Under the pieces are notes generated by a model. It searched no databases, had not been told where the DNA came from, and was given only the letters and a program-made list of their open reading frames with translations. Below, piece by piece: positions 26,149 through 33,053 of a stretch of 38,925 nucleotides of DNA. The DNA comes from an uncultured marine group I thaumarchaeote (GTDB lineage: Archaea > Thermoproteota > Nitrososphaeria > Nitrososphaerales > Nitrosopumilaceae): NCBI GenBank assembly GCA_902590655.1, contig CACIXQ010000006.1, forward strand, positions 1 to 38,925, read 5' to 3'. Position 1 is the first letter of the stretch; each line of letters starts with the position of its first letter. The position numbers and the translations under genes were made by a program.

Positions 26149-27861
26149 TCACTTATGAGTAAAAATAGCCTGTTTGGATGAATCCTTTCTACAATATCCA
26201 AACCTAACAAACTGTATCTCTTCATCATTATTTAATTCCAAATAATGTGGCTCTGTGTATACATGTATTTCTTCTAAACTTTCCTCATTGAACTTGTCAT
26301 TAACAAACAACTGTTGTGGTATGAGAATTTTTAGTTCATGTGCATTTTTTTTGGAGACCCACTGCAATTTCATGAAATTTACATCATGGTCATCGCCAGT
26401 AAATTCTGCATCTATCTCTGAATTTATGGACGTGATTTTTACATTACCTAGTCCCATTAAGCGTAATTGATCCCCAACCTTAAGATCCTTAACATCTTCA
26501 GACGACAGAAACACACTATCTTCTATTGTAACTTTTCTCGTTCCCATTTTATTTGATGGATGGTTAGGAAGTTCTACAGTAGAATTAGGTAAATTACTAA
26601 TTTTCAATGTTTTAGGATCTTTTACCATAAATAATCTGATACTATTTTCGTCCACAATTTTTCTATTGAATGCCTCAAGTGAATCAAATGGCGCTAATGT
26701 ATCAGCTTTTGTAAGACTCAAAGACAGTGTAAATTTTCTAATTGCTTCTGGAGTAATTCCGCGTCGCTTCAGAGCTTCCAATGTTGGTAATCTTGGGTCA
26801 TCATACGAAGAAACCTTTCCTTGATCTATCAAGGGTCTTAAGACCCTTTTTGCAACTGGCATACCTTTGAACTCCAGTCTTGAAAATTCTAACATCTTAG
26901 GATGCTGCATTTCAAGTGCATCAAGTATTGCATGATACAATTCGTTTCTTAACTCATATTCTTTACTTCTTAATGCATGAGTTATGTTGTCAGTATAATC
27001 TTCAACAGCAACAGCAAAATCATAGCTTGGCCACACTCTGTATTTTTCTTCCAAACGTGGATGTCTTGCATCGTTGATTCTAAAAAGTACAGGATCTCGC
27101 ATCACAGTATTCTTAGATTCCATGTCGCCACGTAACCTGACAATTGCTTCTCCAGGTTTGTATTTATCAAACATTTTTTTCCATCTATCTTCATTTTGTT
27201 CGAGATCACCTGCACTACATTCACAAGACACCATCTCTTTCCTGTTCTTGCTTATAGTATCACGTTTACACGTACATACGTATGCATGATTTTTTTTTAT
27301 CATCTCCATGCATTTATCATAAAGTAATTCAATATCATCAGATGTATTTTTTTCATGATCAAATTTTATTCCAAGCCAGTCTAACCCCACTTTTATGGCA
27401 GCCCAATATTCTAACCGTGTATCCTCCGGGTTAGTATCATCAAATCTTAAAACTATCTTTCCGCCATACATTTTCGTATATTCCTCACTGATTATAGCCG
27501 CTTTTGCGTGACCAATGTGAGGGTATCCATTAGGCGCAGGTGTAAATCTAGTTACAACCTTACCATGCTCAGCACCATCCAACGGTGGTAAACCGACGCG
27601 TTCCTCCTTCACAGTTTCTTTCACGTTAAGAATTTCAGGGAAGTTATTCTGAATCTCAGTTTTTTGTTCTTCAATCGACATTCCATTAACCTGGGAAACA
27701 ATTGATGCAATTTCAGGGATCGCTTCCTTTACATTGTTTTTGAGTTCAGGTATTGTTCCTAAAGATTTTGACAGGACAGCCTTGTCCTTTGTCTTACCGT
27801 CATGCTCAAATGCATTCTGTAAAGCTATTTTTCTAATCTCTTTCTTTAAATTATCATCCAA
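26149..27861 (-). CDS. gltX: Glutamyl-tRNA synthetase (archaeal type)
   Basis: This class I synthetase of about 570 residues charges tRNA-Glu and probably also tRNA-Gln, because archaea use a tRNA-dependent amidotransferase. The ATP motif is PNGYPHIGHAK (about 117-127). The KMSKS-loop equivalent is VAKRVL, where most archaeal enzymes have SKR. A Cys cluster CTCKR ... CECS marks the zinc region. The N-terminal 80 residues are the archaeal/eukaryotic helical extension, and the C-terminal half is the beta-barrel anticodon domain. TTG 27861, one base after the upstream stop, is preferred to TTG 27885, which would overlap it. It follows the prenyl synthase gene. Confidence 0.94.
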   Translation of the reverse strand: MDDNLKKEIRKIALQNAFEHDGKTKDKAVLSKSLGTIPELKNNVKEAIPEIASIVSQVNGMSIEEQKTEIQNNFPEILNVKETVKEERVGLPPLDGAEHGKVVTRFTPAPNGYPHIGHAKAAIISEEYTKMYGGKIVLRFDDTNPEDTRLEYWAAIKVGLDWLGIKFDHEKNTSDDIELLYDKCMEMIKKNHAYVCTCKRDTISKNRKEMVSCECSAGDLEQNEDRWKKMFDKYKPGEAIVRLRGDMESKNTVMRDPVLFRINDARHPRLEEKYRVWPSYDFAVAVEDYTDNITHALRSKEYELRNELYHAILDALEMQHPKMLEFSRLEFKGMPVAKRVLRPLIDQGKVSSYDDPRLPTLEALKRRGITPEAIRKFTLSLSLTKADTLAPFDSLEAFNRKIVDENSIRLFMVKDPKTLKISNLPNSTVELPNHPSNKMGTRKVTIEDSVFLSSEDVKDLKVGDQLRLMGLGNVKITSINSEIDAEFTGDDHDVNFMKLQWVSKKNAHELKILIPQQLFVNDKFNEESLEEIHVYTEPHYLELNNDEEIQFVRFGYCRKDSSKQAIFTHK

Positions 27862-27862
27862 G

Positions 27863-28846
27863 CTACAAACGCCTTTTGATAACAAAATCCAATAATGAAA
27901 TTATTTCATTTTTTGCAGGACCAGTATATGATTTGAGTGACTTTTCAGCTTGTTGTGCATATTTCAATGTCATGCTTCTCACTTCATCTTCTACTCCCAA
28001 TGAACGGATTACATTGACTGCTAACTTGATCTGTTGCTTTGAAGCTTTAGAGTTTCCAAAAACACGCATTATTGTTTTTCTGTCCTTACCTTTTGCTTTC
28101 TTTATTGCAAGAATAATTGGAAGTGACTTTTTGCCTTCACGTATATCATTTCCTACAGGTTTTTTCGTAATCTTGCTGTCACCAATAATTCCAATAAGAT
28201 CATCCGTAATTTGGAATACTATTCCCAAATTCCTTCCAAACGATGAGAGGTTTTTTACATCCTTTTCCTTTCTTTTTGCGCAAATTGCACCCATAGCACA
28301 TGAAACCTCAAAGAGTACCGCTGTTTTCTTTTCAATCATTTTGATGTACTCTTTCCCAGTTGGAATCCTCTTGTTTTCAGCAAATTTAATGTCATCAACT
28401 TGTCCCTCACAAATCTCAATGCATGTCTTGGATAATTTTGATATTAGTTGTGTTGTATAATTGGTAGATAGTTTTGATTTGGACGAAATAGTATGGTATG
28501 CCTTTGAATACAAAACATCGCCTGCCAGAATTGCTAGTGGCATATCGAATTTTTTATGTGTAGTTGGAACCCCATGCCTCATCTCGTCATTGTCCATAAT
28601 GTCATCGTGTACCAGCGTGAAATTGTGAATCATCTCAACCGCACTAGCTGCTGCCATTGCATCAGATTGCTTCCCACCAAGTATTTGGCAACTCTTTAAA
28701 ACCAAAAATGGTCTTAGGCGCTTACCACCGTGAAGTATTAGATGTGAGGCTGCATCGTACAGTTGTTTCGGGTTGCCTTTGAGTTCTTTTTTTAAGAACT
28801 TGTTTACAAAACCTGCATTTTTTTTAATAGAATTTGTAGCTTTCAA
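27863..28846 (-). CDS. Polyprenyl diphosphate synthase (GGPP/FPP synthase)
   Basis: This protein of about 327 residues condenses isopentenyl diphosphate with allylic diphosphates to make the C15-C20 precursors of archaeal ether lipids. The first Asp-rich motif is HDDIMDND and the second is QITDDLIG; GGKRLRP near residue 45 binds diphosphate. The two residues before the first Asp motif (Leu-Val-His) do not on their own fix the chain length. TTG 28846 is chosen: it overlaps the isomerase stop in TTGA and has GGAG nine bases upstream. TTG 28861 would add five residues. It is the fourth gene of the mevalonate sub-operon. Confidence 0.93.
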   Translation of the reverse strand: MKATNSIKKNAGFVNKFLKKELKGNPKQLYDAASHLILHGGKRLRPFLVLKSCQILGGKQSDAMAAASAVEMIHNFTLVHDDIMDNDEMRHGVPTTHKKFDMPLAILAGDVLYSKAYHTISSKSKLSTNYTTQLISKLSKTCIEICEGQVDDIKFAENKRIPTGKEYIKMIEKKTAVLFEVSCAMGAICAKRKEKDVKNLSSFGRNLGIVFQITDDLIGIIGDSKITKKPVGNDIREGKKSLPIILAIKKAKGKDRKTIMRVFGNSKASKQQIKLAVNVIRSLGVEDEVRSMTLKYAQQAEKSLKSYTGPAKNEIISLLDFVIKRRL

Positions 28847-29481
28847 GGCACTAATCTCCAATTGTTGTCAGGTATGTAATGCTTAATTGCATTTTCATAT
28901 ACATGTTTCAAATCATCTGAAGTCCATTTTGTAATTAAAGAATTGAATTTTTCCAGCGTATTAGGGTCAGAATCCGCAAGAAAGTAAAGTGCTATTACCA
29001 TCCATGGGCAGTATACGTCCTTGTTCTGTTCAAGTTCATTTTTCAGTTCATCTGGGTTAATCCATTTGATCTCAGAAATTTCATCTTTAATCAAAGACGA
29101 TTCGTCAAAACTACTTATTGTCCCAATCAGCGTGCCACAAATTTCATTTTCAGAACCAATATCCTTGTATGGAACGTGATATTCAAATTTGTTAATGTAA
29201 TTCATCTTGCAGTCTATTCCTATCTCTTCTGGCATCCTTCGTTCTGCAGATGATACATAGGTTTCAGATTCTCTTGGATGGCTTGCAACAGTTCCATCCC
29301 AATCATTTGGCCATAGCATTTTGCCGTCACCCCTTTTTGTTAACAGTAATTTTCCATCATCATTGAATATCAACGCAGTAAACGCCCTGTGAAGCTTTCC
29401 GTTCGACAAATGACATTTTACTTTCTCTTCTTTTCCAATAGGATTGTCGTTTTCATCTACAAGAATAACATATTCTTCCAT
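28843..29481 (-). CDS. Type 1 isopentenyl diphosphate isomerase-like Nudix protein, catalytic Cys replaced
   Basis: This 212-residue member of the Nudix IDI family interconverts IPP and DMAPP in relatives. The metal ligands of E. coli Idi (His25, His32, His69, Glu114, Glu116) correspond to His24, His31, His68, Glu111 and Glu113 here, and the active-site Tyr is kept in FEYH. However, the essential Cys (position 67 in E. coli) is Ala66 in GTVASHP. The Nudix box reads RRMPEEIG. ATG 29481 is preceded by AGGTGA, whose TGA is the stop of the kinase gene; the longer frame to 29529 is unlikely. It lies between isopentenyl phosphate kinase and prenyl synthase, so a role in IPP/DMAPP balance is likely. 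Confidence 0.88.
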   Translation of the reverse strand: MEEYVILVDENDNPIGKEEKVKCHLSNGKLHRAFTALIFNDDGKLLLTKRGDGKMLWPNDWDGTVASHPRESETYVSSAERRMPEEIGIDCKMNYINKFEYHVPYKDIGSENEICGTLIGTISSFDESSLIKDEISEIKWINPDELKNELEQNKDVYCPWMVIALYFLADSDPNTLEKFNSLITKWTSDDLKHVYENAIKHYIPDNNWRLVP

Positions 29482-29485
29482 TTTA

Positions 29486-30223
29486 TCACCTGAATAGCGT
29501 ACCTTCAAACTTTTTACCAGAAACACCATCAGTGATTCTTTGTGGTTTGTTACCGTTTACGAAAAACACTTTCAAACCAGATTTTGACATTTTTGTAGCC
29601 TCTGTGATTTTTCGAGTCATTCCACCAGTTACATCCATCTTGTTTTTACTGATTATCGGTTTTTCTTTTTTGAAATCATAAATCAATTTTTTTGACTTTG
29701 TGTTAGAGTACACACCATCTACATCCAGAACAAAAACTGACAGTCTTGGCTTCAGTATTTTTCCAATTATAGTCATTATCACATCTCCAGACAAAATGTA
29801 AGATTTTTTCTGACCGTACCACAGTGCATCACCATATGTGACTGGAACAAGTCCAGACTTTGCAATCTCACCAATCTTCTGAATCTTATTTCTAATAGGC
29901 TTGTTTCCATTCATAAAATCTGTAGGTGGCATAGAGTATGTATTTAGTCTGTTTTTTGCTGCGCTATCCAAGATAATTTTGTCCAGTTCTATCATGGAGT
30001 TTTTTACGACTGAGAGTCCCTTCAAGCTGTATCTTGCAGGTTTTGTATGCATACCATATTTCACAGACCAGTAATGACCGTAAGAACCACCACCATGAAC
30101 CAAAATCACTGGCTCTTTAATCTTCTTGATTTGTTTTAGAATATTATCAATTGTCTTTCTTCTTGCCGATTCTGGTTTTTCCTTATTTGTGATTATTGAA
30201 CCACCCAATTTTATTAGAATCAT
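29486..30223 (-). CDS. Isopentenyl phosphate kinase
   Basis: This 245-residue amino-acid-kinase-fold enzyme phosphorylates isopentenyl phosphate to IPP, the last step of the archaeal alternative mevalonate pathway. The start MILIKLGGSIITNK, VHGGGSYGH (near residue 45, with the substrate-selecting His of the IPK family) and DVDGVYSNTKS with a GGMTRKI motif identify it. ATG 30223 overlaps the mevalonate kinase stop in ATGA; the GTG at 30241 would add six non-family residues. It is co-transcribed with mevalonate kinase and the isomerase. Confidence 0.94.
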   Translation of the reverse strand: MILIKLGGSIITNKEKPESARRKTIDNILKQIKKIKEPVILVHGGGSYGHYWSVKYGMHTKPARYSLKGLSVVKNSMIELDKIILDSAAKNRLNTYSMPPTDFMNGNKPIRNKIQKIGEIAKSGLVPVTYGDALWYGQKKSYILSGDVIMTIIGKILKPRLSVFVLDVDGVYSNTKSKKLIYDFKKEKPIISKNKMDVTGGMTRKITEATKMSKSGLKVFFVNGNKPQRITDGVSGKKFEGTLFR

Positions 30224-31176
30224 TCTTCTATCATACCCCACACTACTCCCTTTGTATCAATTTTTGCTGAAAAACATTCCTTATCCTTTCCTAAAAGTGC
30301 AGGCACTTTGTCCATATTATCATCCTGGACTAGTGCAATAATACATCCACCATCTCCGGCTCCGGTAATTTTTGAACCCAAAGATATTTGATTTAAGGAA
30401 TTTATCATATTCCGTAATGTATCATTTGAAATTTGTATCTCTTCAAGATATTCCTGGTTCTCTGACATTTTTAATCCCAATGTAGTGGAATCATTATTTT
30501 TCATGGCTGTAATTACTTCATCGATTAATCCATTTTCAAGATCACATAATTGTGAAAACCTCTCTTCATCATTTTCCTTAAATTTACTAACTCTTTCAAC
30601 ACTACTCTTCGTGCTATGCGGAATCATCGAATTTGCTATTACAAGATTAATCTGAAAAGTACTTTCAATTTTTCTAGTTCCACTAGATTGATCATATTCA
30701 ATCATTCCTCCATAAGTACAAACAGTACAATCTGCACCAGATGTATTAGGAAAGATTGTTTTCTCAGCTTCTATTGATAGATTTAGGATCTCTTCAGATG
30801 ATAATTTGTTAAATAATTCGGAGATTGAAGCTGCCGCAGCAACACAACACGCGGATGACGATCCAAGTCCTACTCCAATTGGAATATCAGAATCTATTGT
30901 AATTTCTAATCCTGTCACGTTTGGTTCTGAATTAATTATTTTATTTGCCAGATAAACAAACGGCTTAAACTCATTCTTTACATCTTCATGTGATGATAGA
31001 ATGGGTACTTCAATTGTTCCTAATTCTGAATTTATTTTTATAGTTTTATTCTCTGTAAAAATTGTGGTCACTGTCACTCTTTTGTCTATTGCAGCAAGAA
31101 TTGCCTTAGTTCCATGAACAACAAAATGTTCGCCGAAAAGAATTATTTTTGCCGGTGCTGACGCTATTGATTTCAA
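30220..31176 (-). CDS. mvk: Mevalonate kinase (GHMP family)
   Basis: This 318-residue enzyme phosphorylates mevalonate at O5. It starts SAPAKIILFGEHFVVHG, a textbook mevalonate kinase N-terminus, followed by the ATP-binding IGVGLGSSSACC near residue 95 and a C-terminal GAGDGGC motif. The start is TTG, with no better ATG upstream and only 22 bases after rps2. The last bases overlap the phosphokinase start. With IPK next to it, and no phosphomevalonate kinase or diphosphomevalonate decarboxylase in the cluster, this fits the archaeal branch through isopentenyl phosphate; those other enzymes must lie elsewhere. Confidence 0.95.
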   Translation of the reverse strand: MKSIASAPAKIILFGEHFVVHGTKAILAAIDKRVTVTTIFTENKTIKINSELGTIEVPILSSHEDVKNEFKPFVYLANKIINSEPNVTGLEITIDSDIPIGVGLGSSSACCVAAAASISELFNKLSSEEILNLSIEAEKTIFPNTSGADCTVCTYGGMIEYDQSSGTRKIESTFQINLVIANSMIPHSTKSSVERVSKFKENDEERFSQLCDLENGLIDEVITAMKNNDSTTLGLKMSENQEYLEEIQISNDTLRNMINSLNQISLGSKITGAGDGGCIIALVQDDNMDKVPALLGKDKECFSAKIDTKGVVWGMIEE

Positions 31177-31198
31177 TATTTTGGTTTAAGACGTTGCT

Positions 31199-31807
31199 CT
31201 ATAATTCTTCTTCCACTTCAGCAGTCTTGGTTTCAAAGTCATCAATTTCATATTTCATTTCTTCCGAATCTTGAAGAAGTTCACGAGCCAAGAGCCAGTA
31301 GACCGTTGCAAGGGATTTTCTTCCTCTGTTATTAGCAGGAATCACCAAGTCAAGTTCTGACGTAACATTATCAGTATTAGCAATTCCTATTACCGGAATT
31401 CCTGCATTTGTAGCTTCGGTAACTGCTTGAGCATCAACCTGAGGATCAGAGACTATGATTAGTTGTGGTTCTGAATAATATGGAAGTGCTGGATTTGTAA
31501 GTGTTCCAGGCATAAATCTTCCTAGCATTTTTCTTGCGCCGGTCAGTTCACAGAATTTTTCAATTGGTGTATTAGCATATGTTCTTCCAGAATATACAAT
31601 TACTTTCTTGATATCAAATTTTTTAATGAATCTGCTAGCAGTCTCAATTCTGCTTAGGGTTATATCCAAATCAAATAGGTAAAGACCCTCAGGACTGGCT
31701 TGTGTAATATATGGAATCATAAATTTTGTCTTTACTTCTGTTCCTACACGTATTCCAGTGGAAAGAATTTTCTTTTTAATCTCGTCATGTTCAGTCTGCT
31801 GGCTCAT
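31199..31807 (-). CDS. rps2: 30S ribosomal protein uS2
   Basis: This 202-residue archaeal S2 has GVRVGTEVKTKFM-like N-terminal sequence, YVYSGRTYAN-type phrase VYSGRTYANTP, MLGRFMPGTLTNP and IVSDPQVDAQAVTEA, all standard. The end is acidic (KTAEVEEEL). It follows enolase after seven bases and precedes mevalonate kinase. A GAGG stretch inside the enolase end lies about 12 bases upstream of the ATG. Confidence 0.97.
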   Translation of the reverse strand: MSQQTEHDEIKKKILSTGIRVGTEVKTKFMIPYITQASPEGLYLFDLDITLSRIETASRFIKKFDIKKVIVYSGRTYANTPIEKFCELTGARKMLGRFMPGTLTNPALPYYSEPQLIIVSDPQVDAQAVTEATNAGIPVIGIANTDNVTSELDLVIPANNRGRKSLATVYWLLARELLQDSEEMKYEIDDFETKTAEVEEEL

Positions 31808-31814
31808 TTTATTT

Positions 31815-33053
31815 TTAAACCTCTGCCATTCCTCGTATTAAATCATGCTCTGAAAGACGAATTAATTCATTTAATTTTGCAACTCTTTCCCCACCAACAA
31901 CACCAACTTTGAGCATTTTTGAATTGGTTCCTATTCCTATATGCGAAATTTGTGAATCTGTTGATTCTCCAGAGCGATGTGACGTGATCAGTTTAATATC
32001 ATTACTTTGTGCTGTCTTGGCAAATTCTAACGCATCGTATAAGCTTCCTGCCTGATTTACTTTTAAGATTGCAGCATTACATGACTTCTTTTCGATTGCT
32101 TTTTTTAATATCTCCTTGTTTGTTACAGTTAGATCATCACCAGTTATCATGGTTTTAGGAAATTTTGATACTAGTTCAGACATATCATCAAACGCTTCTT
32201 CATGCACTGCATCCTCTGCATAGATCAGTTTGTATTTTTCGATAATACCAGCAGCAAATTCAATTTGTTTTTCTGGAGTATTTTCAAACCCTGCCCTTTC
32301 ATATACATAAAGTTGTTTTTCTTCATTCCACTGTGTTGACGATGCAAAATCAACTCCTAAGGATACTTCCTTACCTAAAGTATATCCCAAGTTTTCACAA
32401 GCTTGTGCACAAAGATCTAATGCCTTTTCATTATCACATTTTGGGGCCCATCCACCTTCATCACCTCTTCCATTTGTAAAACTGGGATCTGTTTTTTCTA
32501 TCACGTTACGTAATTCCTTATGAACCTTGAAATTAGTTTCAATAGCATCTCTAATTGTTTTGGAGCCAGGTGCAGAAATCAAAATCTCTTGTATGTCAGG
32601 TGTTCCAGGTCCCGCGTGTGCACCGCCACCTAAAATATTCCCTATCGGAATAGGAAATTTGTAATCATTTTGCTCTGAAATTAATTCAAACAAAGGCTTT
32701 CCAGCTGATTTTGCTGCTGATTCCATTGAAGCAATTGTGACTGCATAAGCTAACGCTCCACCAATCTTAGAGTAGTTAGATGTTTTATCTATGGATTTAA
32801 TCACTTCATCAATTGATTTCAAGTCGTTTGATTCAAGTTCAAGAAATTTTGTTGAATTTTCATTTAAAATACGAAGGCTTTCCTCAGGACCTCCTTCTGG
32901 GAAACTAGCAGCCTCATACTTTCCAACACTCGCACCAGATGGTGCAGCTGTTCTACCAAGATATTGGTTGTCAGAGATAATGTCAACTTCTATAGTTTTA
33001 GTACCTCTACTGTTGTGAATTATTCTACCTTTAATTGACGAAATTTTAGCCAA
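31815..33053 (-). CDS. eno: Enolase
   Basis: This 412-residue enzyme dehydrates 2-phosphoglycerate to phosphoenolpyruvate. Conserved sites include HNSRG at the N-terminus, GGGAHAG, the catalytic Glu in GDEGGWAP, the catalytic Lys in AAILKVNQAGS and the SHRSGES loop. It starts at TTG, one base after the rpoN stop, so translation is probably coupled. Its position between rpoN and rps2 is a classic archaeal arrangement. Confidence 0.97.
   Translation of the reverse strand: MAKISSIKGRIIHNSRGTKTIEVDIISDNQYLGRTAAPSGASVGKYEAASFPEGGPEESLRILNENSTKFLELESNDLKSIDEVIKSIDKTSNYSKIGGALAYAVTIASMESAAKSAGKPLFELISEQNDYKFPIPIGNILGGGAHAGPGTPDIQEILISAPGSKTIRDAIETNFKVHKELRNVIEKTDPSFTNGRGDEGGWAPKCDNEKALDLCAQACENLGYTLGKEVSLGVDFASSTQWNEEKQLYVYERAGFENTPEKQIEFAAGIIEKYKLIYAEDAVHEEAFDDMSELVSKFPKTMITGDDLTVTNKEILKKAIEKKSCNAAILKVNQAGSLYDALEFAKTAQSNDIKLITSHRSGESTDSQISHIGIGTNSKMLKVGVVGGERVAKLNELIRLSEHDLIRGMAEV

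Follow-up and report, generated by a model that had tools for sequence, protein, structure and literature searches.

A Cys-less Nudix homologue of type 1 IPP isomerase as the probable IPP:DMAPP isomerase of the Nitrosopumilaceae

In the Nitrosopumilaceae, IPP is most probably isomerised to DMAPP by a Nudix protein that works without an active-site Cys, a reading to which we assign a probability of about 0.8. Judged from the genome sequences, this protein, a homologue of type 1 IPP isomerase (IDI-1), is the only detectable isomerase candidate in the family. The best evidence that it is a working isomerase is its apparent replacement, in place, of the FMN-dependent type 2 isomerase (IDI-2) in a conserved gene block.

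The window, contig CACIXQ010000006.1 with a length of 38,925 nt, belongs to a 0.91-Mb partial assembly that is 74% complete; all window features given below lie on its minus strand. The gene for the Nudix protein (28843..29481, 212 aa plus stop), recognised by its ORF, the profiles TIGR02150 and NF002995 and the fold of its product, is the third in the order MVK-IPK-IDI-GGPPS; the enclosing ORF spans 28843-29529, with the Met at 29481 as the most likely start. Directly upstream lies the gene for isopentenyl phosphate kinase (IPK; 29486..30241; NF040647, 197.7 vs. 120), which makes IPP, preceded by that for mevalonate kinase (MVK; 30220..31176; TIGR00549, 216.4 vs. 163). At its other end, the Nudix gene overlaps the gene for a geranylgeranyl-type diphosphate synthase (GGPPS; 27863..28861; PF00348, 250 bits), an enzyme that requires both IPP and DMAPP. 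The conserved block is opened by rpsB and enolase (31199..33053) and closed by glutamyl-tRNA synthetase (GluRS; 26149..27885). In most other families of the class, rpsB and MVK are separated by about 0.9 kb (L279, L280, L284), enough to hold a further gene; the window operon (31176-31199) lacks this interval. The window protein is 93% identical to a named record, and on this basis the window genome is probably close to Nitrosopelagicus; together with Nitrosopumilus, Nitrosotenuis, Nitrosarchaeum, Nitrosotalea and Cenarchaeum, this genus supplies the named records of the family Nitrosopumilaceae (f1).

In an alignment with E. coli IDI, His24 (29410..29412), His31 (29389..29391), His68, Glu86, Glu111 and Glu113 of the window protein correspond to H25, H32, H69, E87, E114 and E116, and Ala66 to C67. 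A sequence-only reading of this DNA, which had matched His24, His31, His68, Glu111 and Glu113 with the metal ligands of Nudix IDI and had placed Ala66 of GTVASHP at the position of the catalytic Cys67, is thereby confirmed on both counts. The motif W61-D-G-T-V-A66-S-H-P69 (29275..29301) stands against a canonical W-[STA]-N-x-[CV]-C-[GS]-H-P, with GCA as the codon of Ala66 (29284..29286) and Asp62 (29296..29298) at E. coli column 63. Ala is also found at the Cys67 column in the E. coli IDI crystal structures 1ow2/1q54 and 1hx3. Across the family alignment, the metal ligands H25, H32, H69, E114 and E116 are all conserved, as is E87, and the substrate-site residues K21, R51, K55, R83, Y104 and W161 are all retained (E. 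coli numbers). The segment E111-N-E113-I-C115 (29137..29151) holds a metal ligand, the catalytic Glu (E116) and an invariant Cys (E. coli C118). Tyr101 (29179..29181), the counterpart of the catalytic Tyr104, does not vary within the family or IDI-1, whereas hydrolase-like homologues mostly have another residue there. The Trp of the substrate pocket (W161), contained in C158-P-W160 (29002..29010), is likewise invariant in IDI-1 and the family and missing from most hydrolase-like homologues. Beyond it, the C-terminal part (28846-28996 in the window), in which Trp186 is invariant, is longer in the family proteins, of about 202-215 aa, than in E. coli Idi.

According to the available text of a review (PMC3509576), a Glu protonates the substrate in IDI-1 and a conserved Cys abstracts the C2 proton; the catalytic residues cited there and in the available text of PMC5925831 are Cys139/Glu207 in yeast and Cys67/Glu116/Tyr104 in E. 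coli. Loss of a Cys that is catalytic in both organisms should be severe unless compensated. The family proteins resemble type 1 IDI, as represented by E. coli Idi, human IDI1 and bacterial forms with WSNxCCSHP, in fold, metal ligands, diphosphate-binding Lys/Arg, catalytic Glu, Tyr104, Trp161, an RR Nudix box and profile cut-offs, but differ from it by Ala for the catalytic Cys and D-G for the preceding [STA]-N. Since Ala replaces this Cys in every family sequence, they are, in a strict sense, not canonical type 1 IDI.

The alignment of thaumarchaeal homologues at the Cys column, which the sequence-only reading had proposed, gave Ala in 92 of 92 distinct family sequences, encoded by GCA in 69, GCT in 15, GCG in 5 and GCC in 3; the use of all four Ala codons at an invariant position argues for selection at the protein level. 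The pattern W-D-[GA]-[TS]-x-A-S-H-P, searched at the DNA level, matched 219 of 250 family genomes; of the 131 good genomes it matched 127, and the reversed pattern used as a control gave 0 matches. The Nudix gene was found in 128 of the 131. Among the four good genomes without a pattern match, G016 does have the Ala, its mismatch being confined to a Ser codon; in G039, G246 and G170 the orthologue of the adjoining GGPPS gene is missing as well, which suggests a gap in these assemblies. That the Cys is missing through a sequencing error or decay of the gene is therefore next to impossible, given the four synonymous codons, the distribution of the motif and reading frames that are open and free of stops. 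Cys-bearing orthologues beside an erroneous codon, which would have undone the earlier observation, were not found, and sequencing error is refuted. The observation holds, and the case for it is stronger than first put: the Cys-less trait is clade-wide and, by its codons, evidently selected.

The sequence-only reading had offered a DMAPP supply by a type 2 IDI elsewhere in the genome as one way out, and had suggested a search for this FMN-dependent enzyme. A profile search placed IDI-2 over the cut-off in 0 of 250 family genomes, many of them complete; the best fragments reached about 25 bits against the 281 needed, with 7 of 14 control genomes above the cut-off. In the class sample, 85 genomes have IDI-2 over the cut-off; they cover nearly all other families and include none from f1 or the sister family f4, and the proposal is refuted in the form in which it was made. 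A second, Cys-bearing IDI-1 was not seen in the phylum survey, which gave one IDI-1 match per family genome with positive controls. An unrecognised IDI-2 or second IDI-1 elsewhere could be sought in the missing quarter of the incomplete window genome, yet the uniform result across the family makes it very improbable; for these two enzyme families this explanation is refuted, which would leave only an isomerase of a new kind.

In 11 other families (f2, f3, f5-f11, f14 and f16), IDI-2 was located at 20 loci within the block enolase-rpsB-MVK-IPK-IDI2-GGPPS-GluRS, directly before GGPPS in 19 of the 20 and downstream of IPK at all loci with a detected IPK, some rows of this set missing genes that fall below the search threshold. 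In the Nitrosopumilaceae, deep lineages included, the Nudix gene occupies the IDI-2 slot of the same block. The simplest reading is a non-orthologous displacement of IDI-2 by the Nudix gene in place, and a newcomer that displaced IDI-2 in this manner must do its job. The two proteins would then share an operon slot and, presumably, a reaction, in spite of unrelated folds and cofactors; the fold of the Nudix protein is not the FMN TIM-barrel of type 2 IDI (TIGR02151).

The main rival to an isomerase function is that the protein is a Nudix hydrolase acting on IPP/DMAPP or on nucleotides, for example converting DMAPP to DMAP in opposition to IPK or as a feed into the prenyl-FMN pathway, with DMAPP then coming from an enzyme of another kind. 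The window protein passes the equivalog cut-offs of IDI-1 (TIGR02150, 111.4 vs. 105.8; NF002995, 129.1 vs. 127). Its AlphaFold2 model, with a mean pLDDT of 94.8, found IDI-1 structures at ranks 1-16 of the PDB fold matches (E. coli, Salmonella, human IDI1 and IDI2), with a TM-score of 0.84, normalised by target, for the top matches such as 1hx3. Ranks 17-18 are held by DR0079 and YfcD, related proteins of IDI-like fold that are named putative Nudix hydrolases and lend the rival some weight, although they match more weakly in both sequence and fold. Both Glu of the EE pair of the Nudix box are also present. The box as a whole, by contrast, departs from the hydrolase form GX5EX7REUXEEXGU and reads SX5EX7RRMPEEIGI; in the degenerate segment R81-R82-M-P-E-E86 (29224..29241), Glu86 is retained and Arg stands for the hydrolase Glu of RE. 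This catalytic Glu is Arg in 92 of 92 family sequences and Glu in 19 of 22 hydrolase-like homologues, and RR for RE is described as the IDI form of the Nudix box in the available text of PMC5389931. Hydrolase-like homologues mostly keep RE..EE and lack the Tyr104 and Trp161 that the family retains, and they fall outside the IDI clade.

In trees that included the hydrolase-like homologues, the YfcD and DR0079 sequences themselves being left out, the forms from f1, f4, f63 and Nitrospirota group together with the Cys-bearing IDI-1, and the hydrolase-like group stands apart, a split that holds with the motif columns removed (99/93). Ten hydrolase-like homologues of the [AV][TS]GHV type come from outside the class, and 9 of the 10 host genomes have IDI-2 over the cut-off, so that these homologues are not needed as isomerases. 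The Nitrosopumilaceae gene, on the other hand, fills the IDI-2 slot in genomes with no IDI-2 left. Taken with the Arg at the RE position, the retained Tyr and Trp and the separation in the trees, this makes a hydrolase unlikely, and we retain the isomerase reading.

The sister family f4, of the same order, bears on the isomerase reading in both directions. Its IDI-2 slot is empty, with the IPK and GGPPS matches 47 bp apart in the complete genome G294 (L130; C1:596258-598960), and no IDI-2 over the cut-off was found in its members of the class sample. Twelve f4 genomes have a Thr-type Cys-less homologue (e.g. WDVSFTSHV), which lies outside the mevalonate cluster, a location that speaks against the isomerase reading; in G294, this homologue with its TSHV motif is found at 1436206-1436706, near riboflavin-kinase-like and Rrp41/42-like genes. 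The sole f4 genome without a Thr-type homologue, G340 (L103, L129), has a Cys-bearing IDI-1 with WANACCSHP instead, on a contig that is archaeal, as the gene adjoins cdvB/Vps4-like and IleRS-like genes. This exchange points to the Cys-less homologue as the isomerase, as a single case in a genome that is 90% complete.

Cys-less forms on the IDI side of the alignment comprise those of f1 (Ala), f4 (Thr), f63 (Ala, with one residue fewer in the loop), Nitrospirota (Ala) and the bacterium CSMAG_54 (Ser). All 38 of these rows have D or E at column 63 and no N at column 64, whereas the 27 Cys-bearing rows all read [STA]-N in these two columns. Because members of a group are related to one another, the rows stand for few independent events, five or so at the most and perhaps as few as two or three. 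The Nitrospirota forms (L240, L244, L245) read WDGTVASHP, WDGSVASHV and WDGTVASHV and occur without IDI-2. In CSMAG_54 (L242:1498-2851), the motif is WETTCSSHP, with Glu at 63, and the gene overlaps one for a UbiA-like prenyltransferase. The f63 genomes (L172 and L175; G604 and G538) encode a divergent IDI-like Nudix protein with WEFPASH and have no IDI-2 over the cut-off.

If the Nitrosopumilaceae protein is an isomerase, IPP produced by IPK would be held by Lys20, Arg50, Lys54 and Arg82 together with the metals, and part of it turned into DMAPP, the starter for the GGPP synthase of the adjacent gene. As in E. coli, Glu113 would protonate C4 with the help of Tyr101 and the metal; the C2 proton, which falls to Cys67 in the E. 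coli enzyme, would most likely be removed by another group. Of the two ways out considered by the sequence-only reading, a different acid/base is thus favoured over a type 2 source, and covariation in the alignment suggests a candidate in Asp62. This residue is Asp in 92 of 92 family and 12 of 12 sister-family sequences, and it is the lead candidate because an acid at column 63 accompanies the loss of Cys in every Cys-less group. That Asp62 replaces the Cys as acid/base may well be the case, although at less than even odds: it precedes Ala66 by four residues on a strand close to fully extended and could be too far from the substrate, and Asp at column 63 is also seen in 2 of 22 hydrolase-like homologues, so that its role may be structural.

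An isomerase without any dedicated replacement residue, a rival to this one step and not to the isomerase function, is also possible, if short of probable. In this case, either the proton transfers would be made from one face by Glu113/Tyr101 and the metal, or the C2 proton would go to a bound water or to the diphosphate of the substrate itself; Asp62 and Gly63 would be mere structural repacking. Such a course is consistent with the invariance of Glu113, Tyr101 and all metal ligands, and with the presence of Ala, Thr or Ser at column 67 according to lineage, which means that no single new group has arisen there; it has to be weighed against the covariation at column 63 and the standing of the Cys as indispensable to catalysis in yeast and E. 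coli (PMC3509576, PMC5925831, available text). Human IDI2 (2pny) offers it a parallel as a Nudix IDI in which the catalytic Cys is replaced, in this case by Ser; it is reported to be active, weakly. Unlike the family proteins, IDI2 has Thr at 63 and Asp at 64 and is a paralogue beside the Cys-bearing IDI1, not a sole isomerase. As for other Cys residues as substitutes, Cys115 (E. coli C118) is shared with E. coli and with bacterial relatives that have the catalytic Cys and is thus not specific, Cys158 occurs in just one of three Nitrospirota Ala forms, and Cys23 is Ser in one family sequence.

Tentatively, the Cys-less proteins of the Nitrosopumilaceae, their sister family, Nitrospirota and others may form a mechanistic class of their own among Nudix IPP isomerases, one in which a carboxylate, the Asp/Glu of E. 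coli column 63, does the work of the Cys. Such a class would possibly be older than the Cys form, and in ammonia-oxidising archaea it would have taken over the slot of the flavin enzyme. In the tree with the motif columns, the Cys-less lineages lie outside the Cys forms with moderate support; without these columns the inner order collapses, and the Cys may have been either gained or lost. The available text of PMC3533463 reports an IDI1 of Thaumarchaeota by Lombard and co-workers and ascribes it to transfer from bacteria, an origin consistent with the observed identity of 38-49% to IDI-1 of bacteria and Nanoarchaeia/Pacearchaeota. The Cys loss, the Ala motif and the slot replacement are not mentioned in the available text of PMC3533463, nor is the missing Cys in that of the other papers cited, and the open-access literature searched gave no assay of a thaumarchaeal IDI, subscription papers being outside this search.

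The clade-wide extent of the trait, its recurrence in other lineages and the replacement of IDI-2 in place had escaped the sequence-only reading, and annotation by family scores masks the change from Cys to Ala. The operon shows an enzyme swapped for an unrelated one in the same position. Isomerases that withstand oxidation and thiol reagents might be obtained from Cys-less forms, and the Nitrosopumilaceae enzyme makes the movement of the C2 proton without a thiol directly testable. Textbooks treat the Cys of type 1 IDI as essential, yet a large and abundant family of marine archaea appears to depend on the Ala form for all its membrane lipids.
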